This document shows, in pieces, positions 8,049 through 53,836 of a stretch of 64,000 nucleotides of DNA. Source of the stretch: Desulfonispora thiosulfatigenes DSM 11270 (GTDB taxonomy: Bacteria; Bacillota; Peptococcia; Peptococcales; Desulfonisporaceae). A program made the translations under genes and the position numbers. How positions within the stretch are numbered: the stretch's first letter is position 1; each line of letters begins with the position of its first letter. The stretch covers positions 248,001-312,000 of the forward strand of contig NZ_FWWT01000022.1 in NCBI RefSeq assembly GCF_900176035.1, written 5' to 3'. The notes under the pieces are model-generated. The model had not been told where the DNA came from, searched no databases, and worked only from the letters and a program-made list of their open reading frames with translations.

Positions 8049-8405
8049 GTGAAAAGTCAAAACGGAATGACACTAATAGAAATCATGGTGGTAATGGTTA
8101 TTATTAGTATTGCTTTAATACCAATGATGCATATGTTTACTTTTAATTTTCAAACTCTAAGTACAAGTAAAGAGAAATATGAAGCTATTTTAAAAGCTCA
8201 AGAAATTTTAGAAAGAGAAAAAAACAATATTAACACTTTTGCATCTAATTTACAAAGTTCCGCTATTTACGTAAGAAAAGAAGATGGATTTATATCTGAA
8301 ATAACAGTTTCTCAAAAAGATATTTTATACACTATTGCGGTAAAAGTTTATAATGAAAATCAAAATGTTCAATTGATAACTAAAGTAGGTAATTATCATG
8401 AATAA
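8049..8405 (+). CDS. GspI/PilV-type minor pseudopilin (locus 1)
   Basis: Short prepilin (118 residues) with processing site NGMTLIEIMVVM at residues 5-16; the residue after the Gly is Met instead of Phe, as in many GspI/PilV proteins. After the helix comes KEKYEAILKAQEILERE, matching the A-x-x-x-A-Q-x-x-x-E pattern of GspI. The GTG start at 8049 is preceded by GAGGTG. It overlaps the next pseudopilin gene by 8 bases, consistent with coupled synthesis of the H-I-J-K-like tip subunits. Confidence 0.82.
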   Translation: MKSQNGMTLIEIMVVMVIISIALIPMMHMFTFNFQTLSTSKEKYEAILKAQEILEREKNNINTFASNLQSSAIYVRKEDGFISEITVSQKDILYTIAVKVYNENQNVQLITKVGNYHE

Positions 8406-9338: not shown

Positions 9339-9362
9339 TAAATTAATAAAGGAGTGTATAGA

Positions 9363-10223: not shown

Positions 10224-10226
10224 ATA

Positions 10227-10883
10227 ATGGATATTAATTTATTGCCTCCTAAATATAAAAGTAAACTTTCCTTGAGTAAAAAAGGTATTAAAAGAATATT
10301 AATATATCTTTCAATTTTTAGCATAATTATTATTGGAATAACTAGCTATAATTCTTATAAAACTGCACTCTTAAAAAAAGAAGCAATATTACAAAAAAAA
10401 TTAGCTAATTTAGAGCCTGGTTATAAAAGTATCACCGAATATGAAGAAAAGTTAGCAAACAATAATAAAGTTAAACAAATTACAGAGCACATCAATACCA
10501 ATAAGCAAGTATGGTCCAGTTTATTAGTGGATATTTCCGGTTGTTTAGAAAATGGAAGTTGGCTTAAGAGTTTAGATAAAAAAGATAATAAATTAATTAT
10601 TCAGGGAAACGCGGAAAATTTTAATCTTATTAGTACATATGCCATAAAACTTAGAGAACTTACCTGGTTTAAAAATGTAGATATAACCCTAGCAGAAGCA
10701 TTTAGTGATCCTAATGTAAGTACGTCAAATGGAAATAAACAGCAGGAAGATAACAAGCAAAATTTTTTTGCCTTAAAAGATAATAAAATAAAATTAAATG
10801 ATAATTTAGTAACATTCACTATAGAAGCTGAGTTAAAGAGACAGCTATCATTTTCAGATTCTCTAGAAGGAGGATCTAAATGA
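10227..10883 (+). CDS. pilN: PilN-like pilus assembly protein (locus 1)
   Basis: Bitopic inner-membrane protein that bridges PilM and PilO. It begins MDINLLPPKYK, the conserved INLLP motif that inserts into PilM, followed by one membrane segment (about residues 25-43), a coiled-coil-like stretch and a ferredoxin-like periplasmic part (SWLKSLDKKDNKLIIQGNAENF). 218 residues is slightly long; the extra length is a polar, Asn/Gln/Lys-rich insert near 165-185. Four-base ATGA overlap with pilO. Confidence 0.83.
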   Translation: MDINLLPPKYKSKLSLSKKGIKRILIYLSIFSIIIIGITSYNSYKTALLKKEAILQKKLANLEPGYKSITEYEEKLANNNKVKQITEHINTNKQVWSSLLVDISGCLENGSWLKSLDKKDNKLIIQGNAENFNLISTYAIKLRELTWFKNVDITLAEAFSDPNVSTSNGNKQQEDNKQNFFALKDNKIKLNDNLVTFTIEAELKRQLSFSDSLEGGSK

Positions 10884-11527
10884 TAAATTATTTAGCAGAA
10901 AAATTAAACATTCGTAAACCATTTTTATATTTACTGATTATATGTCTGCTAATATGCACTTATTTTATTCTAATAGAAGGTGAAATTAATTTTTTCGTTG
11001 AAAAGTATGCGCAGGTAAACTTTTTAGAGCAGGAAATTAAGTCCTTGGAGAAAAAAATTAAACCATTAGATCAGAGAAAATTAGAAAAAACACAAGAGGA
11101 AGTTGAGATACACAAAGAAAAGTATGAAATAGGGATACAATCACAACTTGTATTAGAACAGACGAATAAATATGCGCAAAGCGCTGGTCTTACTATTGCA
11201 GGATTTAAAACACATCAAAAAAATAATCAAGAGAATTTCAAAAGTAGGGTTTATGAATATATATTTACAGGACATTATGAAAATTTTATTAATTGGTTAA
11301 AATTAATGGAAAAAAGCTCGTATTACGTTAACTTAGAAAGATTACATATTTCTCCAGATGAATTTGAGGAGACAGACTTAGAAAATAAAAATTATGATCA
11401 AAGGTTACTTATAGTTGTATCAATTAATAATATCTCTCTAAATGAGTATAAGTGGGTAGAAAAAACTAATACTAGTTTTAGAAGGTATCCTTTTTATCCT
11501 AGTATTGTTCTTAAAGAAGAAGTATAA
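10880..11527 (+). CDS. pilO: PilO-like pilus assembly protein (locus 1)
   Basis: Bitopic membrane protein of 215 residues: short cytoplasmic start, one membrane segment near 16-32, a coiled coil (LEQEIKSLEKKIKPLDQRKLEKTQEE, about 48-80) and a C-terminal ferredoxin-like fold with YEYIFTGHYENFINWLKLMEKSSYYV, the usual PilO pattern. The ATG overlaps the pilN stop. It ends the pilus part of locus 1; tldD follows after 31 bases with no terminator seen, so tldD may be on the same transcript. Confidence 0.8.
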   Translation: MINYLAEKLNIRKPFLYLLIICLLICTYFILIEGEINFFVEKYAQVNFLEQEIKSLEKKIKPLDQRKLEKTQEEVEIHKEKYEIGIQSQLVLEQTNKYAQSAGLTIAGFKTHQKNNQENFKSRVYEYIFTGHYENFINWLKLMEKSSYYVNLERLHISPDEFEETDLENKNYDQRLLIVVSINNISLNEYKWVEKTNTSFRRYPFYPSIVLKEEV

Positions 11528-35121: not shown

Positions 35122-36787
35122 ATGCTTTTAGAATTAAGTATAAGAAATTTTGCCTTAATTGATCAATTAGACTTAAGATTTGATGAGCACCTTAATGTTT
35201 TAACAGGAGAAACTGGAGCAGGTAAATCAATTATTATTGATGCAGTTTCTCTTTTACTTGGGGCAAGAGCACAAAGCCATTTTATTCGAGTAAATCAAGA
35301 AAAAGCAATGGTTGAAGGGTCTTTTTATGTTCCAGTAGGACACCCAGTTGAAAATGTGTTAAATGAATTAGGTCATGAAGTAGATGAAGAAAGACTTGTG
35401 ATCCTAGCTAGAGAAATTCACTTAAATGGAAAAAATGTTAGCCGCTTAAATAATAGGGTTATAAATTTGACTACTTTAAAAAAAGTCGGACCTGAATTAA
35501 TAAATATATACGGACAGCATGATTTTCAAACTCTTTCAGAAGAAAAAATGCATTTGCATTTAATAGACTTACTCGGTGATAAGAGTTTTAAAAAAGATCT
35601 TGATAATCTGCAGGATTTATATAAAAATTGGCAAGAAGATGTAAAAAAAATCCTTAAATTAAAAGAAAAGATTAATGACAAAAATCAAAGAGTAGATTTT
35701 TTGAAATTTCAAGCCCAAGAAATTGGTGCCTTGAATTTAACGGAAAATGAAGACATAGAAATCGAAAATGAACTTAATTTATTAAAAAATCATGAAAAAA
35801 TCGTTTCAGTAGCAGATAATAGTTTTAATCTCTTATATGGCCAAAACTCAGCATATGATCAAATAAGTAAAGCAATTGATGCTGTTTCAAGCTTAAAAGA
35901 TATTGACCAAGAATTTGAAAATATTTTGAGCGATTTAAAAAATGCACAAATTAGTGTTGAAGAAAGTGCCAGAGTTTTAAAAGGCTATTCTGACAACTTT
36001 GATTATGACTTAAATCGCAAAAATTTCCTCGAAGAAAGATATTTTGAAATTAATAAATTAAAAAAGAAATATGGGAATACTATAAATGAAATTTTAGAAT
36101 ATTTAAATACAGCTAAACAAGAAATTGACGAAATTGAAAATAGTGAATTTTTTATAAAGGAACTAGAAGATAAAGAAAAAAATCATATTCTATCTACTTA
36201 GCTCTTGCTGAAAGGATTTCAGAAAACAGAAAAACAATAGCTGCAAATTTAGAAAAGAATTTAACCTATAAATTAAAAGATTTAGCAATGGAAAATACAA
36301 AATTTAAAGTATCATTTGAAAAAAAGAAGGAAATGCAAAAGGTATAGATAATCTAGAATTTTTAATTTCACCAAATCCTGGGCAACCCTTAAAGTCTGTC
36401 TCTAAAATTGCCTCAGGTGGCGAAATGTCACGAATAATGCTAGCTCTAAAAGTCATCTTAGCAAAAGTTGATTCTATTAATACTTTAATTTTTGATGAAA
36501 TAGATGCTGGAATAGGCGGAAATATACTGGTCAAGGTTGCCGATACCTTATCTTCCTTAGCTACTGATTGTCAGGTAATATGTGTAACTCACTCACCACA
36601 AATTGCAAGTTGTGCCCATAAACATTGGTTAATCAGCAAAAAAATTATAGAAAATAAAACTATAACGGATATTAATGAACTTGCTGAAAATGAAAGAATA
36701 GACGAGTTAGCTCGCATGCTAGGTGGTAGTGATCAAGTCACTAAAAGTCATGCTTTAGAATTACGAAAAAAAGTAATTAGTAAATAA
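35122..36787 (+). pseudogene. recN: DNA repair protein RecN, interrupted by two frameshifts as read
   Basis: SMC-like ATPase for double-strand break repair. Part 1 (35122 to about 36182) has Walker A GETGAGKS at 29-36 and YGQHDFQTLSEEK; part 2 (36183 to about 36325) codes YLALAERISENRKTIAANLEK; part 3 has VSKIASGGEMSRIMLALKVI, LIFDEIDAGIGG and TDCQVICVTHSPQIAS. Each junction falls in seven A (36176-36182 and 36319-36325), and one extra A at each gives a continuous protein of about 555 residues, normal for RecN. All catalytic motifs are intact, which argues against an old pseudogene and for sequencing error, recent mutation or slippage. Confidence 0.85.
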
Positions 36788-39205: not shown

Positions 39206-39249
39206 AAAAAATTCACCTCGTTGATTATAATCAATTAGGTGAATTTTTC
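39206..39249 (+). terminator. Strong terminator after spo0A
   Basis: AAATTCACCT pairs with AGGTGAATTT, enclosing a second palindrome TTGATTATAATCAA, followed by T. A long composite hairpin directly after the stop. Confidence 0.88.
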
Positions 39250-39264
39250 ACCTATTATAAATAC

Positions 39265-39293
39265 TTGAAATAATAGTTAAATTAGGATAAAAT
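39265..39293 (+). promoter_or_regulatory. Sigma-A-type promoter of the second pilus operon
   Basis: TTGAAA, exactly 17 bases, TAAAAT. The expected start near 39300 lies just before the riboswitch aptamer. Confidence 0.75.
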
Positions 39294-39314
39294 CAAATCA
39301 AAAAACAATTTATC

Positions 39315-39386
39315 TGTTGGGCAAATGATTCATGACTGTGTTTGGACGCCGATGTCATGTTGATGCAGTGGCGTAACCGACTAACA
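39315..39386 (+). promoter_or_regulatory. Cyclic di-GMP-II riboswitch aptamer
   Basis: The aptamer aligns with the class II c-di-GMP riboswitch as I recall it from Clostridium acetobutylicum. Conserved parts: AATGAT after P1; TTTGG followed by a stem (ACGCC with GGCGT, about 39346-39350 and 39370-39374) around a 19-base insert of identical length (hairpin TGTCA/TGATG-type, then CAGT), then AACCGA at 39375-39380. P1 is TGTTGG (39315-39320) with CTAACA (39381-39386). Class I (GEMM) was tested and does not fit. It precedes a pilus operon, as in Clostridioides difficile where a class II element controls pilA1. Confidence 0.85.
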
Positions 39387-39414
39387 ATGATCTATTTATT
39401 GTTGGTCTTTATTT
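39379..39414 (+). terminator. Riboswitch-controlled terminator
   Basis: GACTAACAAT (39379-39388) pairs with ATTGTTGGTC (39398-39407), followed by TTTATTT. Its 5' arm contains the whole 3' strand of aptamer P1, so P1 and terminator exclude each other: ligand binding should favour read-through (ON switch). Confidence 0.85.
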
Positions 39415-39445
39415 GTGTTAAGGTACTATTTCCAAGGGAGGCACT

Positions 39446-41122
39446 ATGGAAAAGAGGAAAAGGCTAGGAGATTTACTAGTATCTGCAGGATTAATCTTAC
39501 CCGAACAACTTCAGGATGCCATTAAGCTACAAAAAAATACAGGCAAAAAACTTGGAGAAATTTTAGTTGATGAAAACATTATAGATGAAAAAGATATAAT
39601 AAAAACCTTAGAAGTACAGCTAGGAATACCCTATATTAATTTAGAAAGGTATTACATAAATCCAGAAGTACCTAGATTAATAAATGAAAACTTAGCAAGA
39701 AGATATCTGCTCGTACCTGTTAAAAAAAGTAATAATAAATTAACGGTCGTTATGGCTGATCCCTTAAATATATTTGCCATAGACGATGTAAGTATCGCTA
39801 CTGGTTTAGAGGTTATTATTGCTATTTCATCTAAACAAGAAATCTTAAATGCTATAGATTATTATTATGGAACGGAAAGTGCGGAAAAAGCAGTTGCAGA
39901 TTTTAAAAATCAGTATGATATTGATAACTTAACTGATATAAATGATGAAGTTTTAAGCGAAATAAATAATGCCCCTGTTGTTAGATTAGTTAATTCTATT
40001 ATTAAACAGGCCATTAAAACTAAAGCAAGTGATATACATATAGAGCCTTATGAGAAAAATGTCAGAGTTCGTTTTCGGATAGACGGACAATTACAAGAAA
40101 TAATGGCGCCGGAAAAATCCACCCATTCTCCAATAATTACGAGAATTAAAATAATGGGAAAAATGAATATTGCAGAAAAAAGAGTACCTCAAGATGGCCG
40201 TCTAGAAACTAATGTAGACGGAAGGGACATAGATTTGCGTATTTCAACCTTGCCTACCTCATATGGTGAAAAGGTTGTAATGAGGCTATTAGATAGAAGT
40301 ACTTTTTTAATGTCTAAAAGTAAGATAGGTTTCTCTGATCAAAACTTAGAAATTTTCAATCGTATCATACAAAAGCCTAGTGGAATTATTTTAGTAACTG
40401 GCCCCACAGGTAGCGGAAAAACTACAACTTTATATTCAATTTTAAGAGAATTAAATAGCGAACAAAAAAACATAGTTACCGTAGAAGATCCAATTGAATA
40501 TAATTTAGAGGGTATAAATCAAGTACAAGTAAATCTTAAAGCAAATTTAACCTTTGCAAATGTCTTAAGATCAATATTAAGGCAAGACCCGGATATCATT
40601 ATGATTGGGGAAATAAGAGACGAAAAAACAGCTCAGATTGCAATTAGAGCCGCTATTACAGGTCATCTTGTATTAAGTACTATGCATACCAATGATTCAC
40701 CCTCAACCGTTGTACGTTTAGTAGATATGGGAATAAGACCCTATTTAGTTTCATCTTCTGTTTTTGGTGTTATCTCTCAAAGGTTAGTACGTAAAATATG
40801 TCCAGAATGTAAAAAATCTTATTTTCCAGATGAAATTGAGAGAAAATTACTAAGTATAGATGAAAAAACGCCTTTATATAAAGGAGAAGGTTGTAGTTAC
40901 TGTAATTATACAGGATATAAAGGGCGCACAGCAGTTCATGAAATAATGGCTGTTAATAAAGAAATAAGACTCGAAATTGATCAAAATAAAAGTATAGACC
41001 TTTTAAAACAAACTGCTATAGAGCAGGGCATGATTCCTCTTAAAGAAAATTGTATTCAATTAGTTTTAGAAGGTATAACTACAGTCGAAGAATTAATCAA
41101 CGTATCTTATAACTTGGATTAG
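39446..41122 (+). CDS. pilB: Type IV pilus assembly ATPase PilB with MshEN domain (locus 2)
   Basis: Full-length extension motor, 558 residues. The N-terminus has the two MshEN motifs of the c-di-GMP-binding type: RLGDLLVSAGLI...EQL...AI..LQ (about 6-29) and KLGEILVDENII...D....LEVQLGIP (about 34-58). Then the N2 domain (KASDIHIEPYEKNVRVRFRIDG), Walker A GPTGSGKTTT at 319, Walker B IIMIGEIRD, His box STMHTND and the zinc site C452/C455/C483/C486. ATG 39446 after AGGGAGG. First gene after the riboswitch. Confidence 0.96.
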   Translation: MEKRKRLGDLLVSAGLILPEQLQDAIKLQKNTGKKLGEILVDENIIDEKDIIKTLEVQLGIPYINLERYYINPEVPRLINENLARRYLLVPVKKSNNKLTVVMADPLNIFAIDDVSIATGLEVIIAISSKQEILNAIDYYYGTESAEKAVADFKNQYDIDNLTDINDEVLSEINNAPVVRLVNSIIKQAIKTKASDIHIEPYEKNVRVRFRIDGQLQEIMAPEKSTHSPIITRIKIMGKMNIAEKRVPQDGRLETNVDGRDIDLRISTLPTSYGEKVVMRLLDRSTFLMSKSKIGFSDQNLEIFNRIIQKPSGIILVTGPTGSGKTTTLYSILRELNSEQKNIVTVEDPIEYNLEGINQVQVNLKANLTFANVLRSILRQDPDIIMIGEIRDEKTAQIAIRAAITGHLVLSTMHTNDSPSTVVRLVDMGIRPYLVSSSVFGVISQRLVRKICPECKKSYFPDEIERKLLSIDEKTPLYKGEGCSYCNYTGYKGRTAVHEIMAVNKEIRLEIDQNKSIDLLKQTAIEQGMIPLKENCIQLVLEGITTVEELINVSYNLD

Positions 41123-41132: not shown

Positions 41133-42189
41133 ATGCTTATACTGGACTTATTAAGACAAAGTGTTGAAAAAAAATGCGTCTGATCTGCATATAACTGTGG
41201 GTATTCCACCAATTTTAAGGGTTAGTGGTAGTCTTCATAAAATAAATGATAGACCTTTATCTCCCCAAGATACAGATAATTTTGTGCAAGAATTACTTAA
41301 TGAAAATCAACTTTTAACATTAAGAGAAAATGGAGAACTAGATTTATCCTTTTCAGCTGCAGGACTTGGAAGGTTTAGGATAAATATTTATAGGCAAAGA
41401 GGTAGTTATAGTTTAGCTATCAGAACCGTTGCCTTAAATATTCCTTCAATTGATGATTTAGGGTTTCCACCGATATTAAAAGAACTTGCTATGAAACAAA
41501 GAGGACTTATTTTAGTTACAGGACCAACGGGAAGTGGGAAATCAACAACGCTAGCTTCTATGATTGATTATATTAATACAAAAAGAAGCTGTCATATCCT
41601 TACCTTAGAAGATCCAATTGAATATCTTCATAAACATAATAAAAGTATAGTTAATCAAAGAGAAATTGGTAATGATTCAAAGAGTTTTTCTAATGCCTTG
41701 CGTTCTGCTTTAAGACAAGATCCTGATGTCATTTTAGTTGGTGAGATGCGTGATTTAGAAACAATTAGTATTGCTATTACTGCAGCTGAGACAGGTCACT
41801 TAGTACTTTCTACTTTACATACTGTAGGTGCAGCAAAAACAATTGATAGAATCATAGATATATTTCCTTCTAATCAGCAACAACAAATTAAAGTTCAGCT
41901 TTCAAGTGTTTTAGAAGGCATTATTTCTCAGCAACTATTAGAAAAGGTTGGAGTACAAGAAAGAGTAGCAGCCTTAGAAATCATGGTTGCAAACTCGGCC
42001 ATTAGAAATCAAATACGTGAAGGAAAAACACATCAATTACAAACAAATATTCAAACTGGGAGAAAGTTTGGCATGAACACCATGGATAATGCAATTTTAG
42101 AACTTTATAATCAAGGATTAGTAGATCGTAAAACTGCCCTTACTTTCGCCGTAGATCGAGACAGTTTAAACAAATTAATGGGAATATAA
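41133..42189 (+). CDS. pilT: Type IV pilus retraction ATPase PilT, frameshifted near its start as read
   Basis: Depolymerising motor for twitching. ATG 41133 follows AGGAG and codes MLILDLLRQSVEK, then a run of eight A (41167-41174) leads to a stop; with seven A the frame continues into NASDLHITVGIPPILRVSG and the whole PilT body, about 351 residues, normal. Walker A GPTGSGKS is near residue 130, Walker B VILVGEMRDLETI and STLHTVGA follow, and the PilT C-terminal ALEIMVANSAIRNQIREGKTHQL is intact. As read, the only intact frame would start at GTG 41161 without a ribosome site. Possibly homopolymer error; if real, it could switch retraction off. Confidence 0.88.
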
Positions 42190-42221: not shown

Positions 42222-43433
42222 ATGCCCACTTTTAAATATAAGGCTATAAATAAAAATGGTGAAAAAATACAAGATAATTATACCGCAAAGACAAAAGTCG
42301 AAGTTTTAACGATGCTTAGGCAAAACAATTATCAACCTATTAGTATTGAAGAAATTATCGAAGGACAACATACATTATCTTTAAACTTTATGAATAAAGT
42401 AAAGACAAAAGATATCTCTATTTTTTGTCGCCAATTTTATACTATGCTAAATGCAGGGATAACAGTTTTGAATTGTTTAGACACATTAAAAACGCAAACT
42501 GAAAACAAGAAATTACGTAGTGTAATTAACCAAATATATGAAGATGTTCAAAAGGGATTAACATTTTCAGAATCTATCCGTAAATATAATGATACATTTC
42601 CAGATTTATTAATTAACATGGTTGAAGCAGGAGAAGTTAGTGGAACCTTGGATATTATCATGGAACGTATGGCAGTACACTTTGAAAAAGAAAATAAAAT
42701 TAATAATAAAGTAAAGGGTGCGATGATGTATCCCCTAATTCTAAGTATTGTCTCTATTTTAGTAGTAGTTTTTTTATTAATTTTTATTATGCCTACTTTT
42801 GTGGGTATGTTTGAAGGAAGTGGAGTAGAGCTCCCGCTTCCTACGAGAATATTACTTTCAATTAGTGAAACTATTCAAACTTATTGGTATATCCTTGTAG
42901 CTTTCTTGATTGCACTAGTTTTCTTAGTGAAAAGATATATTACTACGGATAAAGGACATTTTTTCGTTGACCACCTTAAGTTTAAAATTCCTGTTTTAAA
43001 AGACTTAACCCAAAAAGTAGTTACTTCTAGGTTTACGAGAACCTTATCGACTTTATTAACAAGTGGTATACCCTTAATTCAAGCTTTAGAAATAGTAGCC
43101 AAGATTGTGGGTAATGTTGTCGCAGAAAAAGGAATTTTAAATGCAAAAGAAGAGGTACGCAAAGGAGTAGATTTAGCTACTCCGATTAAACAAATAGGGA
43201 TTTTCCCTCCGATGTTAGACAACATGATTCATATTGGTGAGGAATCAGGAGCTTTAGACGACGTCCTTGAAAAAACGGCTAATTTTTATGATGATGAAGT
43301 TGAAACATCCTTGCAAAAAATGACCACTTTATTAGAACCTTTAATGATTATCCTGATGGCTTTAGTCATTGGTGCAATTGTTATAGCCATGGTTTTACCA
43401 ATGTTCAAAATGATGGAAACTGTAAACACCTAA
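42222..43433 (+). CDS. pilC: Type IV pilus platform protein PilC (locus 2)
   Basis: 403-residue membrane protein with two T2SSF domains: DISIFCRQFYTMLNAGITVLNCLDTL near 65-90 and VVTSRFTRTLSTLLTSGIPLIQALEIV near 268-295. MVEAGEVSGTLDIIMERMA and MIHIGEESGALDDVLEKTA are the paired helix signatures; hydrophobic segments near 168-195, 220-240 and 370-395. N-terminus FKYKAINKNGEKI is typical. ATG 42222 follows AAGGGG. Connects PilB/PilT to the pilin. Confidence 0.95.
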   Translation: MPTFKYKAINKNGEKIQDNYTAKTKVEVLTMLRQNNYQPISIEEIIEGQHTLSLNFMNKVKTKDISIFCRQFYTMLNAGITVLNCLDTLKTQTENKKLRSVINQIYEDVQKGLTFSESIRKYNDTFPDLLINMVEAGEVSGTLDIIMERMAVHFEKENKINNKVKGAMMYPLILSIVSILVVVFLLIFIMPTFVGMFEGSGVELPLPTRILLSISETIQTYWYILVAFLIALVFLVKRYITTDKGHFFVDHLKFKIPVLKDLTQKVVTSRFTRTLSTLLTSGIPLIQALEIVAKIVGNVVAEKGILNAKEEVRKGVDLATPIKQIGIFPPMLDNMIHIGEESGALDDVLEKTANFYDDEVETSLQKMTTLLEPLMIILMALVIGAIVIAMVLPMFKMMETVNT

Positions 43434-43540: not shown

Positions 43541-43984
43541 ATGATGAATAAGCAACTTACAAAAAAAATTAAGAACAAAAAAGGTTTTACCTTAGTAGAA
43601 TTAATTGTCGTAATTGCGGTCCTAGGTATTATCGCAGCTATAGCCGTACCGAACTACTTGGGGATTCAGAAAGAAGCAAGAATTAAATCGGACTCTTCGA
43701 CCGCAGCTTCAATTGTCAAGGCAGCAAGATTACAGCATTCGGTAGATGAAAAAGTAGTAACTGGTTTAAAAGATGCTACCACTCCTGGTACTAATCCATT
43801 AAAAGTAGAATATTTTGACGGAACTAAAACACCGCAATCAGGTGGAACATTTGAATTATCATATAACTCCGATGGAAAGTACGAAGTTAAATGGACTTCA
43901 GATGCAACCAAAGGTGATGGTAAAACCTATACCTATATCGAAGGAGCAGATAAAGCAACTACCCCTCCTCCTTCAAATGGTTGA
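43541..43984 (+). CDS. pilA: Major type IV pilin PilA (locus 2)
   Basis: Prepilin of 147 residues. Leader MMNKQLTKKIKNKKG is rich in lysine, cleavage at G|F in KKGFTLVELIVVIAVLGIIAAIAVPNYLG with the essential Glu5, then a helical stem and a beta-rich, Thr/Gly/Lys-rich head ending in PPPSNG. ATG 43541 (or 43544) follows AAAGGGGG, the strongest ribosome site in the operon, in keeping with an abundant subunit. The 107-base gap before it contains a second AAAGGGGG without a usable frame. No cysteine pair is seen in the head. Confidence 0.93.
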   Translation: MMNKQLTKKIKNKKGFTLVELIVVIAVLGIIAAIAVPNYLGIQKEARIKSDSSTAASIVKAARLQHSVDEKVVTGLKDATTPGTNPLKVEYFDGTKTPQSGGTFELSYNSDGKYEVKWTSDATKGDGKTYTYIEGADKATTPPPSNG

Positions 43985-44032: not shown

Positions 44033-44785
44033 ATGATTTACTTTGTGTTTTTTATTGGACTATTAATTGGCTCATTTTTAAATGTATGTATTTATCGTCT
44101 TCCACATCATGAATCCATAGCTTTTCCGCCTTCTCATTGCACGCGGTGTGAGACTAATTTACGGCCAGGGGATTTAGTGCCCGTACTTAGTTATTTATTG
44201 GCTAGGGGTAAATGTCGGTATTGTGGAGAAAAGATTTCTCTACAATATCCTGTGATTGAACTACTTAATGCCATACTTTATATTTTATTTTTCCTAAAGT
44301 ATGGCTTTACAATTATTTTCTTAAAATATGCAATTTTAGCAAGTTTGCTGTTAGTTATTGCAGTTATTGATTACCACTTGCAAATTATACCTGATGAATG
44401 TAACCTTTTTGGTCTCATTGTATCAGGTGCTTTTATTATATTTTATAATTTTTCGTATACTTCCCTAATTGATGCAATATTTGGTCTTTTATTAGGTGGA
44501 GGGATATTTTTAGTAATAGCTCTTGTTTCCAAAGGTGGTATGGGGGGCGGAGATATTAAGTTAATGGGAGTTTTAGGACTAGCCTTAGGGGTTAAAGATA
44601 TTCTTTTAATTACATTTTTATCTTTTATTATTGGGGCAGTTTTTTCCCTTTTCTTGCTAGGTTTTAAACTTAAAAAGCGTAAAGATCCAATTGCATTTGG
44701 TCCTTTTATTAGTGTTGCAGCTCTTATTACAATGCTGTATGGCACAAATATTATAAAATGGTATCTACACTTGATTTTAGGGTAA
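44033..44785 (+). CDS. pilD: Prepilin peptidase PilD, full-length (locus 2)
   Basis: Bifunctional leader peptidase and N-methyltransferase, 250 residues. N-terminal zinc-type cysteines CTRC (about residue 36-39) and CRYC (about 61-64), membrane helices, catalytic aspartates in AVIDYHLQIIPDE and the GxGD motif GGMGGGDIKLMG. ATG 44033 follows AAAGGAG. It could process pilins of both loci; the locus-1 peptidase lacks the cysteine domain. Confidence 0.95.
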   Translation: MIYFVFFIGLLIGSFLNVCIYRLPHHESIAFPPSHCTRCETNLRPGDLVPVLSYLLARGKCRYCGEKISLQYPVIELLNAILYILFFLKYGFTIIFLKYAILASLLLVIAVIDYHLQIIPDECNLFGLIVSGAFIIFYNFSYTSLIDAIFGLLLGGGIFLVIALVSKGGMGGGDIKLMGVLGLALGVKDILLITFLSFIIGAVFSLFLLGFKLKKRKDPIAFGPFISVAALITMLYGTNIIKWYLHLILG

Positions 44786-44802
44786 ATAGTGAGGTGAAAA
44801 GT

Positions 44803-45864
44803 TTGTTTGCTAAAAAAACAATTTCCATAGAAATAGGAACAGCTACCACAAAAGTCGTAATTGGAAAATCTAGAAAAAATAATATAAACATAGAACAAGT
44901 TTGGAAAATTCCTACTCCAGTAGATACTTTTGATGATGGCGAAATAGTTAATCTTAATGTAATGATTGAAACCTTAGATAAATTTTTGGATGAAAATAAA
45001 ATTAAGTTAAAAGAAGTAGTTTTTACCCTGCAAAGCACAAAAGCGATAACCAGGGAAATTATTATTCCCTATGTTAAGAAAGAAGAAGACTTAACCCAGA
45101 TGGTTCAGCTAGAAATAGAACAGTATTTACCCATTAGATTAGAAGATTACATAATTGAGTATAGAATATTAGAAGAACTAATTACTGAAGAATCCAAAAA
45201 CTTAGTGATTTTAATTGTAGCCTTACCTAAAAATATAGTAGAAGGGTATTTGAATTTAACAGAGGTTTTAAAATTAAAGCCTATTTCATTAGATATTAAT
45301 GCTACTGCAGTCACTAAATTTTCACCCGAAGAACTTGTCAAAAACAATGAAAATACTGACCTAGATAAAACCGTAGCTCTTTTAGATTGTGGATATGAAT
45401 ATCTTAATCTTACCATCATTGAAAACGGAATTATGCGATTTACCAGATTGTTAAATTATGGCGGAAAAGATATTGATATGAGTTTAGCTAATGTTTTTAA
45501 CCTTTCTTTACAAGAAGCAGAAGAAAGAAAGCTTGAATATGCAGATTTAACAGACACTGTTTTTGTAAATGATTCTCAAAATATGGTCAACGAGAATATA
45601 AAGACAAGTATTGATACCTGGATTCAAGAAATTCAAAAAGTATTTCGCTTTTATTCAAGTCGTAAAGTAGGTAACAAAATAGATGAAATTTATTTATATG
45701 GAGGTAGTTCAAATATTCCAGGTATGCCTGAGTACCTAGATAAAATGATGAATATACCTACATTTAAAATTAATAAAGTACATAATGTTAATTTAGATAA
45801 TTTACCTGGAGAAATAGTTGTAGGGGATTACTTAAATGCCATAGCATCCCTGAAAGGAAGGTAA
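44803..45864 (+). CDS. pilM: PilM actin-like pilus assembly protein (locus 2)
   Basis: 353 residues. Actin-fold ATP-binding motifs are well preserved: IEIGTATTKVVIG (phosphate 1, about 8-20), ALLDCGYEYLNLTII (phosphate 2) and YLYGGSSNIPGM (adenosine). The SHS2-type region REIIIPYVKKEEDLTQMVQLEIEQYLPIRLEDYIIEYR fits PilM. TTG 44803 follows GAGGTG; the frame extends back to 44758 inside pilD but without a ribosome site there. Confidence 0.93.
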   Translation: MFAKKTISIEIGTATTKVVIGKSRKNNINIEQVWKIPTPVDTFDDGEIVNLNVMIETLDKFLDENKIKLKEVVFTLQSTKAITREIIIPYVKKEEDLTQMVQLEIEQYLPIRLEDYIIEYRILEELITEESKNLVILIVALPKNIVEGYLNLTEVLKLKPISLDINATAVTKFSPEELVKNNENTDLDKTVALLDCGYEYLNLTIIENGIMRFTRLLNYGGKDIDMSLANVFNLSLQEAEERKLEYADLTDTVFVNDSQNMVNENIKTSIDTWIQEIQKVFRFYSSRKVGNKIDEIYLYGGSSNIPGMPEYLDKMMNIPTFKINKVHNVNLDNLPGEIVVGDYLNAIASLKGR

Positions 45865-45873: not shown

Positions 45874-46461
45874 ATGCGTGATATTAACTTTTTTTCGTAT
45901 TATATAGATAGAAAAGGATCTTCAAAGAAAAAACTATATATTTTAATAAGTACGCTAGCAATATTTATTTTATTTACAGGTATAACAACAACTCAAATTT
46001 TAAAAGCAAATCACCTAGAAAAAAAAATTAATCTTGTTCAAGCTGAATTAAGTAATCCAGAAATGCTAAAAAAGGCCAAAGAAATTGAAAAGAAAAAAGA
46101 AAAAGTAGACCTATTACGAAAGCACTATAATATAGTGAAAAAAATTAATCAACAAATAGTTGAAGTGGACAAATTTCATAGTCATCAGTTAGAAGTAATA
46201 GCAGATTCTTTGCCCCAACAATCATTTATAAAGGATATTTCTGTAGATAACGAGACAATTAAAATTCAAGGCATAGCTACTAATAATATTGCAGTAGCTG
46301 AGTTAGAACATAATTTGAAGAAAACACTCTTATTTGATGATGTTCATGTTGACATTATTAATGATGAAAGTGCAAGTGAAGAAATGACGAGTGCAGGAAA
46401 TAAGCAGTTTAACCTTATATGTACTTTTTTTAAGGATGTGAATAATGGTGAAACTAACTAA
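45874..46461 (+). CDS. pilN: PilN pilus assembly protein (locus 2)
   Basis: 195-residue bitopic protein. N-terminal RDINFFSYYIDRKG is a variant of the INLLP PilM-binding motif; membrane segment near 23-42, coiled coil (KKINLVQAELSNPEMLKKAKEIEKKKEKVDLL), then the PilN fold with IADSLPQQSFIKDISVDNETIKIQGIATNN. Overlaps pilO by 17 bases. Confidence 0.87.
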   Translation: MRDINFFSYYIDRKGSSKKKLYILISTLAIFILFTGITTTQILKANHLEKKINLVQAELSNPEMLKKAKEIEKKKEKVDLLRKHYNIVKKINQQIVEVDKFHSHQLEVIADSLPQQSFIKDISVDNETIKIQGIATNNIAVAELEHNLKKTLLFDDVHVDIINDESASEEMTSAGNKQFNLICTFFKDVNNGETN

Positions 46462-47665
46462 TCGTGAAAAAAATCTCTTAATTTTTTTAGCCGTAATTAT
46501 AATATGTACTGCTTATTACCAATTTATCTTTGTACCTTTATATACTAAAGTAACCGACAAAAGTGAAGAATTAGAATTATTAGAAGAAAAATTAAATATA
46601 TATCAAGAATTAATCGCTTCTAAAAAACTTGTAGATAAAGAATATAAAGTTGCTAATTTAAAAGATCAAAAGGCTAGTGAGAAATTCCTACCTTTTATCA
46701 GACAAGAAAGGTTAATCTTAGATATAGATCAAATGATTAAAGAAACTAATATACAAGTATCAAGCATAGATTTTTCTAAGATAGAAACAAAAAATATCAG
46801 AGAAAAAACAGATTCAAAGCCTGAAGAAAAAAAATCCAACTTACTTAAAGATATGAATGACTCCTATTTTCAGAGAAAAGATATTAAAAACAAAGAGGAA
46901 CCTAAAAACGAGGAAAATAAAGAAGTCGTTCCTGTAGAACAAATTAAACTTTCCCTCAGTTTCACGGGAACATATAATCAAATCCTGGATTTTATTAAGA
47001 AACTTGAGGGTTTTGATAAAAAGATTCTCCTAGAAAGCCTAAAAATAGGTCAATCGGATGTTTTTACAGAAAATCTTTCTGCTAATATTGCGATAAATTT
47101 TTACGCAATACCTAAATTACAAATTGAAGAAGAATATTACAAATGGGAAATAAATAATACATATGGAAAAGATAATCCTTTTAAAGCAATAGCAGGATAT
47201 TCTAAACCACAAGCAGAGGTAACAAATGGTACAATTAAAGCCCTTGCCAGCGATTTTATTATAAATGTTAATCCAATAACCTCTGATTTGCCTTCAGTAG
47301 TCATGAGTAAATCAAAAGATGCAAGCATGCAAACTTATGTTTTTGCTGATAATCCTGATTATGAAAATGTAACTTTTCAAGTTTTTCAAAAAGACAATAA
47401 GTATTTTTATAAATATAAAACACGCTTAGACAGTTATCCCAAAGACTTTGATTCTAGTCAAGTAGAATTTAAGCCAGTAAATGGCGAAGTAGTTCTACGT
47501 ATCTATACGCAAAACAGGGTAAATGAAAAAGATAATAACGGTATTAATTTATCCCTTAGCAATAAGTCTGATTTAAATTTAAGAGTAATAGTTAATGGGG
47601 ATGATACACAAAAGCCAAGAATCAAGATCCAGCACAAAGAAGGAAATGTTAGCTTAGAAAAATAG
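46445..47665 (+). CDS. pilO: PilO-like protein with a large C-terminal extension (locus 2)
   Basis: 406 residues, about twice a usual PilO. One membrane segment (about 10-28), coiled coil 35-75, a PilO-type region (KFLPFIRQERLILDIDQMIKETNIQVSSIDF), a charged Lys/Glu insert (about 120-160), then LSLSFTGTYNQILDFIKKLEGFDKKILLESLKI, the PilO ferredoxin-like core. The last 170 residues (from about 232) form a separate, unrecognised beta-rich domain. Exposed outside the membrane, it might contact the cell wall or minor pilins (inference). Confidence 0.83.
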   Translation: MVKLTNREKNLLIFLAVIIICTAYYQFIFVPLYTKVTDKSEELELLEEKLNIYQELIASKKLVDKEYKVANLKDQKASEKFLPFIRQERLILDIDQMIKETNIQVSSIDFSKIETKNIREKTDSKPEEKKSNLLKDMNDSYFQRKDIKNKEEPKNEENKEVVPVEQIKLSLSFTGTYNQILDFIKKLEGFDKKILLESLKIGQSDVFTENLSANIAINFYAIPKLQIEEEYYKWEINNTYGKDNPFKAIAGYSKPQAEVTNGTIKALASDFIINVNPITSDLPSVVMSKSKDASMQTYVFADNPDYENVTFQVFQKDNKYFYKYKTRLDSYPKDFDSSQVEFKPVNGEVVLRIYTQNRVNEKDNNGINLSLSNKSDLNLRVIVNGDDTQKPRIKIQHKEGNVSLEK

Positions 47666-47680: not shown

Positions 47681-48340
47681 ATGTTTAAAGACATCAAAAA
47701 TTCACAAGGTATAACCTTAATCGAAATTATTTTAAGCTTAGCAATTTTAGGAATAATTATTTATCCTATTTCAACTTTATTCATAACTAGCATTAATAGT
47801 AATATCGCTGCCAGAGATTATTTGACTGCTACTCAATTAGCTCAAAAATATATGGAAAAGGTAGTAGCTGATCCTACTTATTATATGAATATGACAGAAA
47901 AAAAGACGACAGAAATAGAAGGAGATCTACAGGTTATAGTCTATGAGCCGACGGAAGTTAGTAAGGGATATGATTTCCATGATTCTGGTATTAGTGCAAC
48001 TAAAACAATTAATGCATCTAATATAAGCGATGGATACAAGATTGTGTTTGATAATTCTAATATAGAAAGTACTAAAATAATTTGTGATGCTAATACAATA
48101 AAAACAATAAGTATAGCTAATGATTCGGATCAATTAGCAAAAATTTACATGATTTACCCTAAAGGCAATACAAATAGAGTTTTTATTAATATACTAAAAG
48201 GTAAAGTAGCTATATTTGAAAATCTAGAAGAGTTAGATTCAATAAATGAGAATAAAAATACTGTCTATAAACTTAAAGTTCAAGTGAAAAAAGATGATAC
48301 GATGTTAACAGAACTTGTAAGACTAAAAACTATAGATTAG
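47681..48340 (+). CDS. Minor prepilin, PilV/GspI-like (locus 2)
   Basis: 219-residue prepilin with processing site QGITLIEIILSLAILGIIIYPIS (Gly then Ile), a stem with NIAARDYLTATQLAQKYMEKVV similar to PilV/GspI, and a beta-rich head. The head (about 60-219) is larger than in locus 1 and not recognised further. ATG 47681 follows GGAGG. First of three minor-pilin-like genes preceding the vWA gene. Confidence 0.82.
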   Translation: MFKDIKNSQGITLIEIILSLAILGIIIYPISTLFITSINSNIAARDYLTATQLAQKYMEKVVADPTYYMNMTEKKTTEIEGDLQVIVYEPTEVSKGYDFHDSGISATKTINASNISDGYKIVFDNSNIESTKIICDANTIKTISIANDSDQLAKIYMIYPKGNTNRVFINILKGKVAIFENLEELDSINENKNTVYKLKVQVKKDDTMLTELVRLKTID

Positions 48341-48350: not shown

Positions 48351-50666
48351 ATGCTTAAAAAAATATTTAAATCAAATACAGGCTCTACCCTTGTCCTTGT
48401 TTTATTTTTCTTATCTATTTTAAGTATGTTAGGTATTACCATTTTATCAGTGAGTACAGTAAATTTAAAAATGAAAGTCGTTGATAAAAATGCTAAAAAC
48501 TCCTTATATCTAGCAGAGTCAGGACTGCAAGAAGCATATGCTGAAATAGGAAAAGTTATCGAAAAAGGAATTGACGTTGGAAATGAAAAAGTAGATGAAA
48601 AATTAAACGAATTCATCGAAGAAGAAAAGAAAAAAGAGGAAGAAAGTAGAGAAAAAGCTGCTTTAGATCCAGAAAATAAAATCGAGATATATGAAAGTCC
48701 TTACCTTACCGACGAAGGTTTTATTGACCAAGAAAGATTAGAAAAAGATAAAAAAAATACAATGATAAATTGGTTTAGGGAGGGGTACACAACATCTGTA
48801 AACGAAAAATTAGAAGGAACTATTTTAAATGGAAAAAATTACAATATAGTTGATAAGGATATTGATTCTTCTAATGCACAAGTAAGTATTATTGAGCCTA
48901 TTAGTCTCTATCAAATAATTAACCAAGAATCAGAGGATTCAGAAAAGGAACCTGATGCAGAAGAATCAAAAGATAAAATAGAAAATGAGATAGTTGATGA
49001 AAAAATCAAGGAATATCGTAACTATCAAATCACCTTATTATCCGAATTTACACATAAAGAAATAGAAAAGGATGTTAGAGCAACTTTTATCCTTAAAGTT
49101 CCTGATTACCGCGCGGCTTATTTTTCGGATTATACAGTAGTACAATTAGATGAAAATATTTTATGGAAAAAATCTCTTACCACCGAAAAAAATATTTTTG
49201 TAGAAGATGATAATGTAACAATTAAGGGTGATATTTATGCTTATGGCACAGCAGAAAATGGAAGTACAAAAGGTGGCATTATAGTTGGTAATGAGGGTAA
49301 GGGAGTAAATTTAAGTGTTTATAATGGTCAAGTAGCCACCAATGAATATCTCCTTACTAATGATAGTAATTCTTCGATTACCCTAAATAATGGAGATCTC
49401 TACTGTAAGATTTTAGAGATTCCCGAGAAAACAAAAAATTGTGCAGTTACAATAGACAAAGGAACGGTTAATACACTTGACGATATTGAATTAAATGGGG
49501 AAAATGCTAAGATCGTAATAAATGGTAGTTATTTTGGTTTTACTGAAGGAAGTAACAGTAGCCACCATGAAGAAAGTAGTAGTATTGTAATTAACAGCCC
49601 TGACCTTGGCAGTGGCACTTCTTTAAAAATTACTGGCGAAGAGATACCTGGTTATGATACTGAGACCAGTCAATTAGTTGGAAATGATTATTATTCTGAA
49701 AAATATAATGATAAAAATAATAAAATTTTTGGTTATGGAATTATCATTGGAGGCACAGGATATATTAGTGAATTAAAGGATGAGCTGGATCAAAAATATG
49801 ATTATCAAACAGGTGAAAGTGTATGTATTAAAGGAAATTATGTTGCTTATACGCAGTATTTAAAAGACCTGACTCGAAAAGGAAAATTCCATCCTGATAA
49901 TATTATAATTAATTATTTTCCGCCCTTGTTTTTAGCGAATAAATATTTCTTATCTGGTGGCACTGAAGAATTATATACTGTTGTTGATAAGAGTGAATAT
50001 TTTCAGCATTATAAAAACGATTATTATGGCTTAAATCTTAATTTAGGCAGTGAAAATGGTTTACAACTTGAAAACGTTAGACACTCTACTGGAGTATATA
50101 TTAGTAAAAATAATATTTTTTCAAGTAAATATAACAATGATATAGCATCAATATTTACAGAAAAGAACGAAGACTATCAATATTATGTAAACAAAATGAG
50201 TGATCCTCAGGTCGTAACTTTATCTAACGAGGGAAGAGTTTTTAACGGATTAGGTACGAGGACAATGATAACAGATCAATTTGCCTTTACAAATAATATT
50301 ATAATTAATGAAGCTAATGAATTGATTAGGATAAATAATAGCCCTGATATATCTATTACAATTAATGAAGATATTAAAAAAGGGATAATTATTACTAAAG
50401 GTGATGTTTATATTAAGGGAAAAGTCAATTTTCGTGGAACTATTGTAGCTGAAGGAAATATATATTTTCAAGATAAAGGAGCAAAAAAAATTACTCATGA
50501 TGAAAATTATCTTCGTCAAACAATAAGCAAAAATGAAACCTTACGAGACCAGTTTAAAAATAATGGCAAAACTCAAAGTTTTGTAACTGACTCAAAACTA
50601 GGCGTAGATGAAACAGGTTCTTATCTAAAGTTTAGTAAGTTAATTGATATAGCATGGAAAAGATAG
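48351..50666 (+). CDS. Giant PilX-like minor pilin with beta-helix-like body (locus 2)
   Basis: 771 residues. N-terminus NTGSTLVLVLFFLSILSMLGITILSVS followed by NSLYLAESGLQEAYAEI is a PilX N-terminal domain. Then a Glu/Lys-rich coiled coil (about 75-110), and from about 280 a long series of short strands with Asn/Gly turns (VTIKGDIYAYG, GGIIVGNEG, ITLNNGDLYCK, KIVINGSYFGF) recurring near the end (GIIITKGDVYIKGKVNFRGTIVAEGNIYFQ), suggestive of a right-handed beta-helix. Typical PilX is under 200 residues. Probably a tip or surface-exposed subunit; the function is inferred. Confidence 0.8.
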   Translation: MLKKIFKSNTGSTLVLVLFFLSILSMLGITILSVSTVNLKMKVVDKNAKNSLYLAESGLQEAYAEIGKVIEKGIDVGNEKVDEKLNEFIEEEKKKEEESREKAALDPENKIEIYESPYLTDEGFIDQERLEKDKKNTMINWFREGYTTSVNEKLEGTILNGKNYNIVDKDIDSSNAQVSIIEPISLYQIINQESEDSEKEPDAEESKDKIENEIVDEKIKEYRNYQITLLSEFTHKEIEKDVRATFILKVPDYRAAYFSDYTVVQLDENILWKKSLTTEKNIFVEDDNVTIKGDIYAYGTAENGSTKGGIIVGNEGKGVNLSVYNGQVATNEYLLTNDSNSSITLNNGDLYCKILEIPEKTKNCAVTIDKGTVNTLDDIELNGENAKIVINGSYFGFTEGSNSSHHEESSSIVINSPDLGSGTSLKITGEEIPGYDTETSQLVGNDYYSEKYNDKNNKIFGYGIIIGGTGYISELKDELDQKYDYQTGESVCIKGNYVAYTQYLKDLTRKGKFHPDNIIINYFPPLFLANKYFLSGGTEELYTVVDKSEYFQHYKNDYYGLNLNLGSENGLQLENVRHSTGVYISKNNIFSSKYNNDIASIFTEKNEDYQYYVNKMSDPQVVTLSNEGRVFNGLGTRTMITDQFAFTNNIIINEANELIRINNSPDISITINEDIKKGIIITKGDVYIKGKVNFRGTIVAEGNIYFQDKGAKKITHDENYLRQTISKNETLRDQFKNNGKTQSFVTDSKLGVDETGSYLKFSKLIDIAWKR

Positions 50667-50686: not shown

Positions 50687-51205
50687 ATGATAAATACTCA
50701 TAAAATTAAAGGTTTTACCCTTTTAGAACTGATACTTACTTTAGCACTTACTGGAACGGTGACACTTGCTATCTTTTCGTTTTTTCTTTCTAGTTACCAA
50801 ACATTTAGTATGTCAAATGATCAAATCGAAGTTCAGAACCAAGCCCAAATTGCAATAAGTAAATTTATTGAACCCATTATGTGGGCAACAGAAATAGCCG
50901 ATATAAATTCAGAAAATAGCAATTTAGAATTTATAGAATTAGAAAAACTAACCTTAAAAACGGGTGATGAATATAACCAATTTGTTTTTGATAAAGCTCA
51001 AAAAAAGTTAATGTATGCAGTGAATCAAAATCAAAACCACCTTTCTCCCACGGTTTATGCGACTAATATTATTTCAGTACAGTACAAAGAACTAAAAGAT
51101 AAACATAATAATATTATAGGACTAGGTATTAAGGTAGTTAGTGAAGTAAAGGAATCAAAAGTAGAGATTGAAAATGAAATTTATTTTAGAAATAAAATTA
51201 AATAA
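50687..51205 (+). CDS. Minor prepilin, PilW/GspJ-like (locus 2)
   Basis: 172-residue prepilin: leader MINTHKIKG, then FTLLELILTLALTGTVTLAIFSFFLSSYQTF. NDQIEVQNQAQIAISKFIEPIMWATEI matches the PilW/GspJ post-helix pattern. The head ends in IENEIYFRNKIK. Between the giant PilX-like protein and the vWA protein, so the three may form a tip complex. Confidence 0.83.
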   Translation: MINTHKIKGFTLLELILTLALTGTVTLAIFSFFLSSYQTFSMSNDQIEVQNQAQIAISKFIEPIMWATEIADINSENSNLEFIELEKLTLKTGDEYNQFVFDKAQKKLMYAVNQNQNHLSPTVYATNIISVQYKELKDKHNNIIGLGIKVVSEVKESKVEIENEIYFRNKIK

Positions 51206-51220: not shown

Positions 51221-53773
51221 ATGAATAAGAGTAAGAGAGTTTTTTTAAAGACAATAGCTTTTACTTTAACATGTTTTATGCTCTTAAGTAGCTTTACCCC
51301 GATTTTAACAAGTGCAGCTGAAGCTACTCTAGGTAAAGCACCAATTAGTTTATTACGACAAGTAGATAATAAAAATAATGCTGTAAAAAAAGGTGAAGAA
51401 TTTACTATCGATTATAAGATCCAGCCCCAACCTATTCAAGCTTCTCAAATTATCCCTGAATCGTATTTGCAAGATAAAGAAATTGTGCTGGTTATGGATA
51501 CATCAGGGAGTATGGGTAAAGATGAAAATGATAAAAGCAAGAACAAGATTATATTCAATAATAAATCCGAGTATAAAATTGACGTAATGAAATTAGTTGC
51601 TCAAAACTTTGTTAGTAAATTTAAAGATGATAATCGGGTAAAAATTGCCCTAGTTCCATATTCAAGTAAAGCTAAAGATGTAACCTTTGACAATCAAAAT
51701 TTTGCGGAAATGTCAAATATTAACACTTTGATGGGTGAGATTAATAAATTAGAGTCTGTTGGAGGTACTAATATAGGAGATGGATTACGCAAAGCTTACT
51801 ATAAGTTTGAAAGTTCAGAGAAGAATACACGTAAATATATTATTTTAATGACAGATGGAGAACCTACCTTTTATTCATATACATCATGGTATTTGGACTG
51901 GTTCAAACGTGTATATAAATACTATTTAGGTAAAAATTCTTCGTATTATATTAATTCTCATAACGATTCTTCTAACGGTAAAGAATATGCCCGTAAAGTT
52001 GCACAGGATTTAATAAAAGAAGGACAGCACTCTATTAATTCCTTTATGATTGCATTTAGTAATGATGCAGATGGTACAGAACTTAAAAACATTGCTACTA
52101 GTGCTGGTGGAACTTTTATAAAAGCAGTAGATGGTAATGCCTTAGATGAAGTATATCAACAACTAGCTGATGAAATTAATAGTGATTTACCTATACATGG
52201 TGTAAAGTTTGCTGAAACAATACCTGATAGTTTTAGTATTATTAATGTATCAGAAGGTTTAGAAATAAATGGTCAAGAAGTAACTGGAAATATAGGCAGT
52301 ATATCTTATAAACTAAATGATGATAAAAGCTTTTTTGAAGCTGAACCAATTGAGTTTTCGATTACTTTAAAGGCTAAGACCATAGGCGAATTTCCTTTAA
52401 AAGTTAATTCTTTCACTTATAAAGATTTAGATGGTACAAATGAAATAAAAGCTTTTTCAACCTTAATCATTAATGTATATGAAACTGATCCCCCAGAAAT
52501 TATAGCAGTAATAGAGGATCACCCAACTGAATCGTCTAAGTATAAGTTAACTGTTTCTGTAGATGAAGCAGCAACTATCAAAGTATTAAATGATACAAAA
52601 GAAATTAAGACTTTTACAACTAAAGGAAAAGAGGAATTTTCTCTAGATTTCCTTAAAAATTCAATTACCAAAGACAAAGATTATCTAACCATAAAAGCAA
52701 CGGATAATTCCTCAAATGTAACGACGGAAACAGTTCCACTTATTTATTTATCTTTAGAGAGTAGGGATTATTTTAATCCTAATAAACAAATAAATGAAAG
52801 ACCTGTAAAAATAAATTTACGAACAGAAAACAATTCGACAATTACTTCAATAAGAGCAAATAATAAGGAAATTATCAAAAACCAATATACTGATCAAGGT
52901 AAATATAAAACACCCAATGAAACTATGTTTAAAGATGGGATTAATACTGTGCAAGTAATAGTTACTAATGAGCATGGAAATATGGCAAGTTTAAGCTTTA
53001 ATCCTAGTCTTGATGCAATTGCCCCTAATTTAACAGCAAAATACACTGACGATTATAGTAAGTTACAAGTAAGTGTTAACCCAGAAGAAAAGATTATCTT
53101 TACTAGTGTGGAAGTAGATTTAAACAATGATGGTGTAATAACGGATGGTAGTAAAAACCAAGGAGACCAAGTTGCATTGAATGAGATATTTACTCAACCT
53201 GTTATAGAAGAAAATGATACAACTTTTACCATTGACTTAAAACCTGAATGGCACGGTAAAGAAATCATAGTTAAGGCAAAAGATAGTGCAGGTAATATTG
53301 GTGCTACTAATGCAAAAAATATTAGTACTATCCTAGATCACTGCCTAGTACTTCTTAAAAATAATAAAATTCAAAAATTAGATAAAGATAAGCTAGATAT
53401 TGTTAATAATTTTGAAACAAAAGTGGGTGTTTTATTCAGCTCGAATTTACTTGTACCACAAAAAATGACCTTAATCTTAGATAAAGAGAATAAAGCTAAA
53501 CTTGATTTAAAAGAAGTGACTATTTATAATGTAAGCGGAAATATGATATCTGCTCCTGAAAAAATTCATTTCACTAAAAATGGTAATAAATACGATATTA
53601 ATATACCAAATCGTGAATTTGCACCAGAATATCTTCTTATTTATAACATTACTCCAAACCTTTCAAGTAATGAAGTTGCCGAAAAAGGTGTTTCTATTAT
53701 TAATACTGTAGAGCTAAATGGACAAAGCAGTACTATAAATTTAAACATTAAAAAGCAACCACAAATTAAATAA
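51221..53773 (+). CDS. Secreted von Willebrand factor A-domain protein, candidate pilus-tip adhesin
   Basis: 850 residues with signal peptide (cleavage near SAAEA, about 31-36). The vWA domain (about 86-320) has a complete MIDAS: D93-x-S95-x-S97 in MDTSGSMG, the Thr in GGTNIGDGL and the Asp in LMTDGEP. A beta-rich region follows (about 325-420), then Ig-like segments (TDPPEII, KATDNSSNV). At D633 a DxNxDGxITD loop (DLNNDGVITD) looks like a calcium-binding site. No LPXTG or membrane anchor at the C-terminus (ends KKQPQIK). vWA plus a DxNxDG loop recalls PilY1. Last gene of the pilus operon, followed by a terminator. Confidence 0.82.
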   Translation: MNKSKRVFLKTIAFTLTCFMLLSSFTPILTSAAEATLGKAPISLLRQVDNKNNAVKKGEEFTIDYKIQPQPIQASQIIPESYLQDKEIVLVMDTSGSMGKDENDKSKNKIIFNNKSEYKIDVMKLVAQNFVSKFKDDNRVKIALVPYSSKAKDVTFDNQNFAEMSNINTLMGEINKLESVGGTNIGDGLRKAYYKFESSEKNTRKYIILMTDGEPTFYSYTSWYLDWFKRVYKYYLGKNSSYYINSHNDSSNGKEYARKVAQDLIKEGQHSINSFMIAFSNDADGTELKNIATSAGGTFIKAVDGNALDEVYQQLADEINSDLPIHGVKFAETIPDSFSIINVSEGLEINGQEVTGNIGSISYKLNDDKSFFEAEPIEFSITLKAKTIGEFPLKVNSFTYKDLDGTNEIKAFSTLIINVYETDPPEIIAVIEDHPTESSKYKLTVSVDEAATIKVLNDTKEIKTFTTKGKEEFSLDFLKNSITKDKDYLTIKATDNSSNVTTETVPLIYLSLESRDYFNPNKQINERPVKINLRTENNSTITSIRANNKEIIKNQYTDQGKYKTPNETMFKDGINTVQVIVTNEHGNMASLSFNPSLDAIAPNLTAKYTDDYSKLQVSVNPEEKIIFTSVEVDLNNDGVITDGSKNQGDQVALNEIFTQPVIEENDTTFTIDLKPEWHGKEIIVKAKDSAGNIGATNAKNISTILDHCLVLLKNNKIQKLDKDKLDIVNNFETKVGVLFSSNLLVPQKMTLILDKENKAKLDLKEVTIYNVSGNMISAPEKIHFTKNGNKYDINIPNREFAPEYLLIYNITPNLSSNEVAEKGVSIINTVELNGQSSTINLNIKKQPQIK

Positions 53774-53790
53774 ATTATAACAAAATTTTA

Positions 53791-53836
53791 ATTCTATCTT
53801 ATCTACTTTTTAAGTATTTAAGATAGGATTTTTTTT
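53791..53836 (+). terminator. Terminator of the second pilus operon
   Basis: ATTCTATCTTA pairs with TAAGATAGGAT (one G-U pair), loop of 17, followed by a run of T. It closes the 14 kb unit that began at the riboswitch. Confidence 0.85.

Follow-up and report, generated by a model that had tools for sequence, protein, structure and literature searches.

All four class II c-di-GMP riboswitches of C. difficile are ON switches (PMC6200980). One of them, Cdi-2-4 of Clostridioides difficile, lies in the 5′ UTR of type IV pilus genes, terminates transcription without ligand and, with ligand, reads through into the major pilin gene pilA1, its first gene, and partly into the downstream pilB operon (PMC6366702). 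On riboswitches heading clostridial pilB operons, or occurring in Fusibacter, we found no literature beyond C. difficile. Here we analysed a stretch of 64,000 nt from Desulfonispora thiosulfatigenes DSM 11270 (GCF_900176035.1, NZ_FWWT01000022.1, positions 248,001–312,000 of the forward strand), hereafter the window, to which coordinates refer unless another locus is named. Like Cdi-2-4, the window has type IV pilus genes whose 5′ UTR carries what is very likely a class II aptamer, and by analogy the same logic of termination without ligand and read-through with ligand is predicted for it. Unlike Cdi-2-4, the first gene is pilB, the motors, pilins and a vWA protein stand in one uninterrupted unit, and the aptamer is of a sub-type with an A-U pair in helix P2 and scores below the Rfam cut-off. 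The initial annotation had set this locus against the pilA1 switch of C. difficile; the pilA1 ON switch stands as precedent, but the contrast is less sharp than was drawn, because of the partial read-through of Cdi-2-4 into the pilB operon. The mechanism is already known from C. difficile pilA1 and is used repeatedly, and the window is a further instance of it. We put the probability at about 0.8 that positions 39310–39407 form a transcriptional ON riboswitch of c-di-GMP class II, gating read-through into a 12-gene pil unit.

The leader between spo0A and pilB

Between the end of spo0A (39205) and the start of pilB (39446), the spo0A terminator, a promoter-like site, the class II aptamer and an intrinsic terminator follow one another on the forward strand. 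The spo0A terminator (39206–39250; stem AAAATTCACCT/AGGTGAATTTT, fold −18.5 kcal/mol) divides spo0A from the pil unit, and we rejected a connection of the riboswitch with spo0A because of this strong terminator and because spo0A and steA are adjacent in other genomes, which suggests an insertion. The sigma-70-type promoter candidate TTGAAA-17-TAAAAT named in the initial annotation is present at 39265–39293, but as a promoter call it is weak by itself, since the stretch is AT-rich and similar sites are frequent in shuffles (five promoter-like sites in the pattern scan versus 2.3 expected). The ribosome-binding site of pilB, read from the sequence, is AAGGGAGG at 39434–39441.

The aptamer occupies 39310–39391 on the forward strand. 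When 301 bases were searched against the 4227 Rfam families, this segment aligned to the full length of the RF01786 covariance model (1–84 of 84) with 40.1 bits and E 1.6e-7, and our own model R1 gave it 51.1 bits. It is the only RF01786 match in the 2.4-Mb genome of the organism (E 2.9e-7); a second class II match there with our model R2 (G000:C12:5689-5781, 33 bits) was rejected, being inside a coding ORF and without an RF01786 match. The motifs AATGAT, TTTGG, CAGT and AACCGA, by which the element had been recognized initially, are all found in the leader, together with a pseudoknot strand ACGCC and its partner GGCGT. Thus the Rfam search that had been proposed as a check returned a significant match, under the gathering score of 53.5 bits, a value set by curators that marks no biological property; for the same reason an Rfam scan of the whole 64-kb window at gathering thresholds gave no match at all. 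Pseudoknots contribute nothing to covariance-model scores. Hence the shortfall is explained by the unscored pseudoknot and by P2 pairs of the A-U sub-type, and the low score would fit a real sub-type in which pseudoknot and P2 pairs are off consensus yet compensated.

The predicted helices can be followed along the sequence. P1 is formed by TGTTGG (39315–39320) with 39381–39386 and has only 6 bp, one of them G-U; P2 by GCA (39321–39323) with TGC (39364–39366), its inner pair being A-U where class II elements mostly have C-G; and P3 by CATGAC (39331–39336) with GTCATG (39354–39359). The pseudoknot joins the P3 loop (ACGCC, 39346–39350) to the segment before AACCG (GGCGT, 39370–39374) by five Watson-Crick pairs. 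In an alignment of 44 distinct class II sequences, 99.5% of the pseudoknot cells are paired; four of the five pairs show double changes, and the covariation score is 0.707 versus 0.244 when shuffled and at most 0.149 when slid. Moreover, when P2, P3, pseudoknot and terminator helix are taken together, seven pilB leaders are 97.5% paired with 10 pairs changed on both sides, against at most 50% paired and at most five such pairs in slid controls. Such compensatory changes across relatives support the predicted pseudoknot, P2 and P3. The inner P2 pair is A-U in all of the seven first-found pilB leaders and in none of 39 other aligned rows; among 73 distinct class II sequences it is A-U in 14 and C-G in 50. 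This signature is not restricted to pilB leaders, because three near-identical class II elements away from pil genes in one genome (L172–L174 of G391) also carry it. These are possibly dispersed or duplicated copies, and one pseudoknot pair is broken in L174.

The overlapping terminator and the unit behind it

An intrinsic terminator of 12 bp with a 5-nt loop (39379–39407, forward strand; ΔG −12.7) is followed by TTTATTTG, and its helix covaries in seven loci. Its 5′ arm (39379–39390) holds the entire 3′ strand of P1, as the initial annotation had noticed, and overlaps the last 13 nt of the aptamer. Two terminator-like sites were seen in the pattern scan versus 0.1 expected, and an equally good overlapping terminator arose in none of 200 dinucleotide-shuffled downstream tails of the window. 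The overlap is present in all seven pilB leaders so compared, shuffled tails being as good in 0/200 cases for six of them and in 5/200 for L030. Because the P1 3′ strand is common to both structures, the aptamer and the terminator exclude each other, in keeping with what had been claimed for them and with the conservation of the overlap in relatives, and read-through with ligand is predicted. Folding without ligand or pseudoknot energy gave −32.5 kcal/mol for the terminator form and −19.5 kcal/mol with P1 forced, so that the terminator form is favoured without ligand, as would be expected of an ON switch that needs it.

The genes behind the leader, all on the forward strand, are pilB, the assembly ATPase with an N-terminal MshEN-type motif (39446–41122; PF00437, PF05157), pilT, the retraction ATPase (41161–42189; PF00437), pilC, the platform protein (42222–43433; PF00482), a pilA-type major pilin (43541–43984; PF07963), the prepilin peptidase pilD (44033–44785; PF06750, PF01478), pilM (44758–45864; PF11104), pilN (45874–46461; PF05137) and a pilO-like gene (46445–47665), the last named from its position after pilN and from tblastn matches to the corresponding position of related loci, with no Pfam match. 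They continue with a minor pilin (47681–48340; PF07963), a PilX-like large pilus protein (48351–50666; DUF2572, PF10833), a further minor pilin (50687–51205; PF07963, slightly under the cut-off) and, as last gene, a vWA-domain surface protein and putative adhesin (51221–53773; PF00092), and a terminator with a T tail (53790–53830; ΔG −14.6) closes the unit. Intergenic gaps are between −28 and 107 nt, and terminator scans found no other convincing terminator between that of the riboswitch and 53790–53830; hence the 12 pilus genes are taken as one unit, and the placing of the riboswitch at the head of a complete type IV pilus operon held up. ON control of the whole unit is likely, and the gap of 107 nt between pilC and pilA could hide an internal promoter or a processing site.

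In the mechanism that we propose, the transcript would begin ∼10 nt upstream of the aptamer. At low c-di-GMP, 39379–39390 would pair with 39396–39407 and the polymerase would stop before pilB, and c-di-GMP bound to the pseudoknotted core would hold P1 together and block the terminator, letting the polymerase read into the 14.3-kb unit that encodes assembly and retraction ATPases, platform, pilins, prepilin peptidase, PilMNO and the vWA surface protein. We infer c-di-GMP binding by the aptamer and the direction of switching from the homology and the overlap. The ligand may also act a second time, on the PilB motor, since PilB carries an MshEN-type motif. The MshEN receptor is described by two 24-residue motifs RLGxx(L/V/I)2xxG(L/V/I)2xxxxLxxxLxxQ with a 5-residue spacer (PMC5013675). 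PilB of the window begins with RLGDLLVSAGLILPEQLQDAIKLQ then KLGEILVDENIIDEKDIIKTLEVQ, and the Pfam MshEN match itself covers residues 59–146; motif I matches except for a conservative change, I in place of the last L, the spacer is 5, and in motif II the R is replaced by K and the turn G by N, the latter change being also found in L015, L019, L020 and L049. From this resemblance, PilB may bind c-di-GMP.

Sixteen GGDEF domains are encoded in the genome, which also has four class I c-di-GMP riboswitches, at least two of the four (L139, 4748–4831; L141, 4179–4261) directly upstream of methyl-accepting chemotaxis proteins. A ZMP/ZTP riboswitch (L176, 2140–2224 of contig C12, 62.6 bits) lies 3′ of a dipeptidase-like gene. 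The window itself holds a second type IV pilus or type II secretion-like operon (3335–11527), with a shikimate kinase-like gene, an ATPase without MshEN that groups with same-order genomes in the PilB tree, a platform protein, a peptidase, pilins and PilM/N/O-like genes, in which neither the Rfam gathering scan of the window nor the search with our own model R1 found c-di-GMP elements.

Alternative readings of the leader

The leader might also hold a decayed class II element, of which fold and terminator persist and c-di-GMP binding is weakened or abolished, leaving a mainly constitutive attenuation of the pil operon. The departures from consensus speak for this: position 39340 is G, with A in 69 and G in two of 72 other distinct sequences, 39351 is G with T in 68 of the 72, one base of the P1-P2 linker is missing relative to the closest relatives, and the window, with the second-lowest Rfam score of the pilB leaders, is alone among the closest seven in having G at 39340 and in lacking the linker base. 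These departures could lower ligand affinity. However, the window retains 19 of the 21 columns in which at least 88% of the 72 other sequences agree, no pair of the pseudoknot, P2 or P3 is broken, P1 keeps its complementarity to the terminator arm, and the G at 39340 recurs in those two other sequences. Moreover, the missing linker base could be an assembly error, because recN, 3 kb upstream, has frame breaks. We therefore consider decay unlikely, and full ligand responsiveness in D. thiosulfatigenes only probable, because the aptamer departs from consensus. The recN gene itself (35122–36787) is spread over three frames with two frame changes at about 36170–36330, which are either assembly errors or the marks of a decayed gene.

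A switch acting mainly on translation, or on both levels, would work through the unfolded P1 5′ strand pairing with the CCAAGGGAGG region near the pilB ribosome-binding site, and the minimum-energy fold of 39300–39440 does pair part of this strand with sequence just before and within that site. Such complementarity is absent from the leaders of relatives (e.g. L010), whereas the overlapping terminator is conserved and covarying, which makes this reading quite improbable. Chance resemblance, with AT-rich hairpins and a terminator but no aptamer, would agree with a score under the curated cut-off, yet it has against it the E-value, the five-pair pseudoknot outside covariance-model scoring and the homologous elements that occupy this position in 15 other loci, and we give it almost no credence. 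A more speculative thought, to which we would assign little weight, is that elements of the pilB-leader sub-type (A-U in P2 and, here, G at the otherwise near-invariant A of 39340) prefer a different ligand, such as another cyclic dinucleotide, or bind with altered affinity, and that they have travelled with pilus operons as mobile cassettes gated by the signal. The transcriptional ON switch for c-di-GMP is the reading that we prefer.

Relatives of the switch and origin of the operon

A protein-based scan of named genomes together with a survey of 398 genomes of the phylum gave 15 further Bacillota loci in which a class II element immediately precedes pilB; such an arrangement can hardly be called rare. 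With the window these make 16 loci, the others being in a Marinisporobacter MAG (L010), Thermotalea (L015), Anaerosolibacter (L021), Ca. Petromonas (L030), a MAG named Epulonipiscium (L049), L011 and nine further genomes. Position and pseudoknot architecture are the same in the 15 as in the window. Eight of the 16 elements are under the Rfam cut-off (besides the window, L011 with 50.3 bits, L030 with 42.7, L049 with 51.9, L148, L150 and L151 with 47.1 and L159 with 38.5). A detector demanding at least 6 pairs recovered, in 12 of the 16, a terminator that overlaps the 3′ end of the aptamer, and with that demand none in L145, L146, L159 and L170; in several distant leaders the terminator, unlike that of the window, is shorter and on an AACCGGC core. 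In L170 (G217) a dense tRNA gene array lies immediately upstream of the riboswitch-pilB unit.

Other pil loci vary this theme. In Tepidibacter (L019, L020) a class II element with overlapping terminator is inside the pil locus, as in the window, but between pilC and a pilin rather than at the operon head, which recalls C. difficile. In Fusibacter and relatives (L023, L027, L028, L032–L034; about 4734–4949), pilB is preceded by class I elements (GEMM, RF01051), with the same operon position and ligand as in the window and a terminator overlapping the aptamer 3′ end by 10–12 nt, but with an aptamer fold unrelated to class II; the aptamer class has apparently been exchanged at one operon. In two same-order genomes, class I elements (L091, G006:C24:5633-5721; L092, G013:C65:8464-8551) stand just 3′ of pilB, before the next gene, and may be internal control points inside the pil operon.

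In the PilB tree the window groups with L010, L011 and L012 (support 100/98), away from the PilBs of its own class. Identities to L010/L011 are 69–71% for PilB, 77–80% for PilT (80% to that of L010) and 72–74% for PilC, against at most about 59%, 63% and 53%, respectively, to own-class genomes, and for Spo0A the relation is reversed, with 68–76% to its own order and class and 44–60% to others. Moreover, spo0A is followed directly by steA in two own-class genomes and in the Thermotalea and Tepidibacter genomes, and precisely this interval is occupied, in the window, by the riboswitch and its pil unit. Because the PilB tree conflicts with Spo0A and spo0A and steA are adjacent elsewhere, we infer that riboswitch and operon probably arrived together, as one unit, by horizontal transfer into the spo0A-steA interval. 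GC content does not differ between the pil unit and its flanks, so composition argues neither for nor against transfer.

Thus in D. thiosulfatigenes a whole type IV pilus machine, with the motors for both extension and retraction, stands under one predicted c-di-GMP-gated terminator, which default annotation would miss. Because half of the 16 class II elements in pilB leaders score below the cut-off, control of Gram-positive pili by c-di-GMP is underestimated. At one and the same position, related operons have an aptamer of either class I or class II, and the operon has seemingly moved between orders together with its switch; this suggests that the link to c-di-GMP has been conserved, and not any one RNA.
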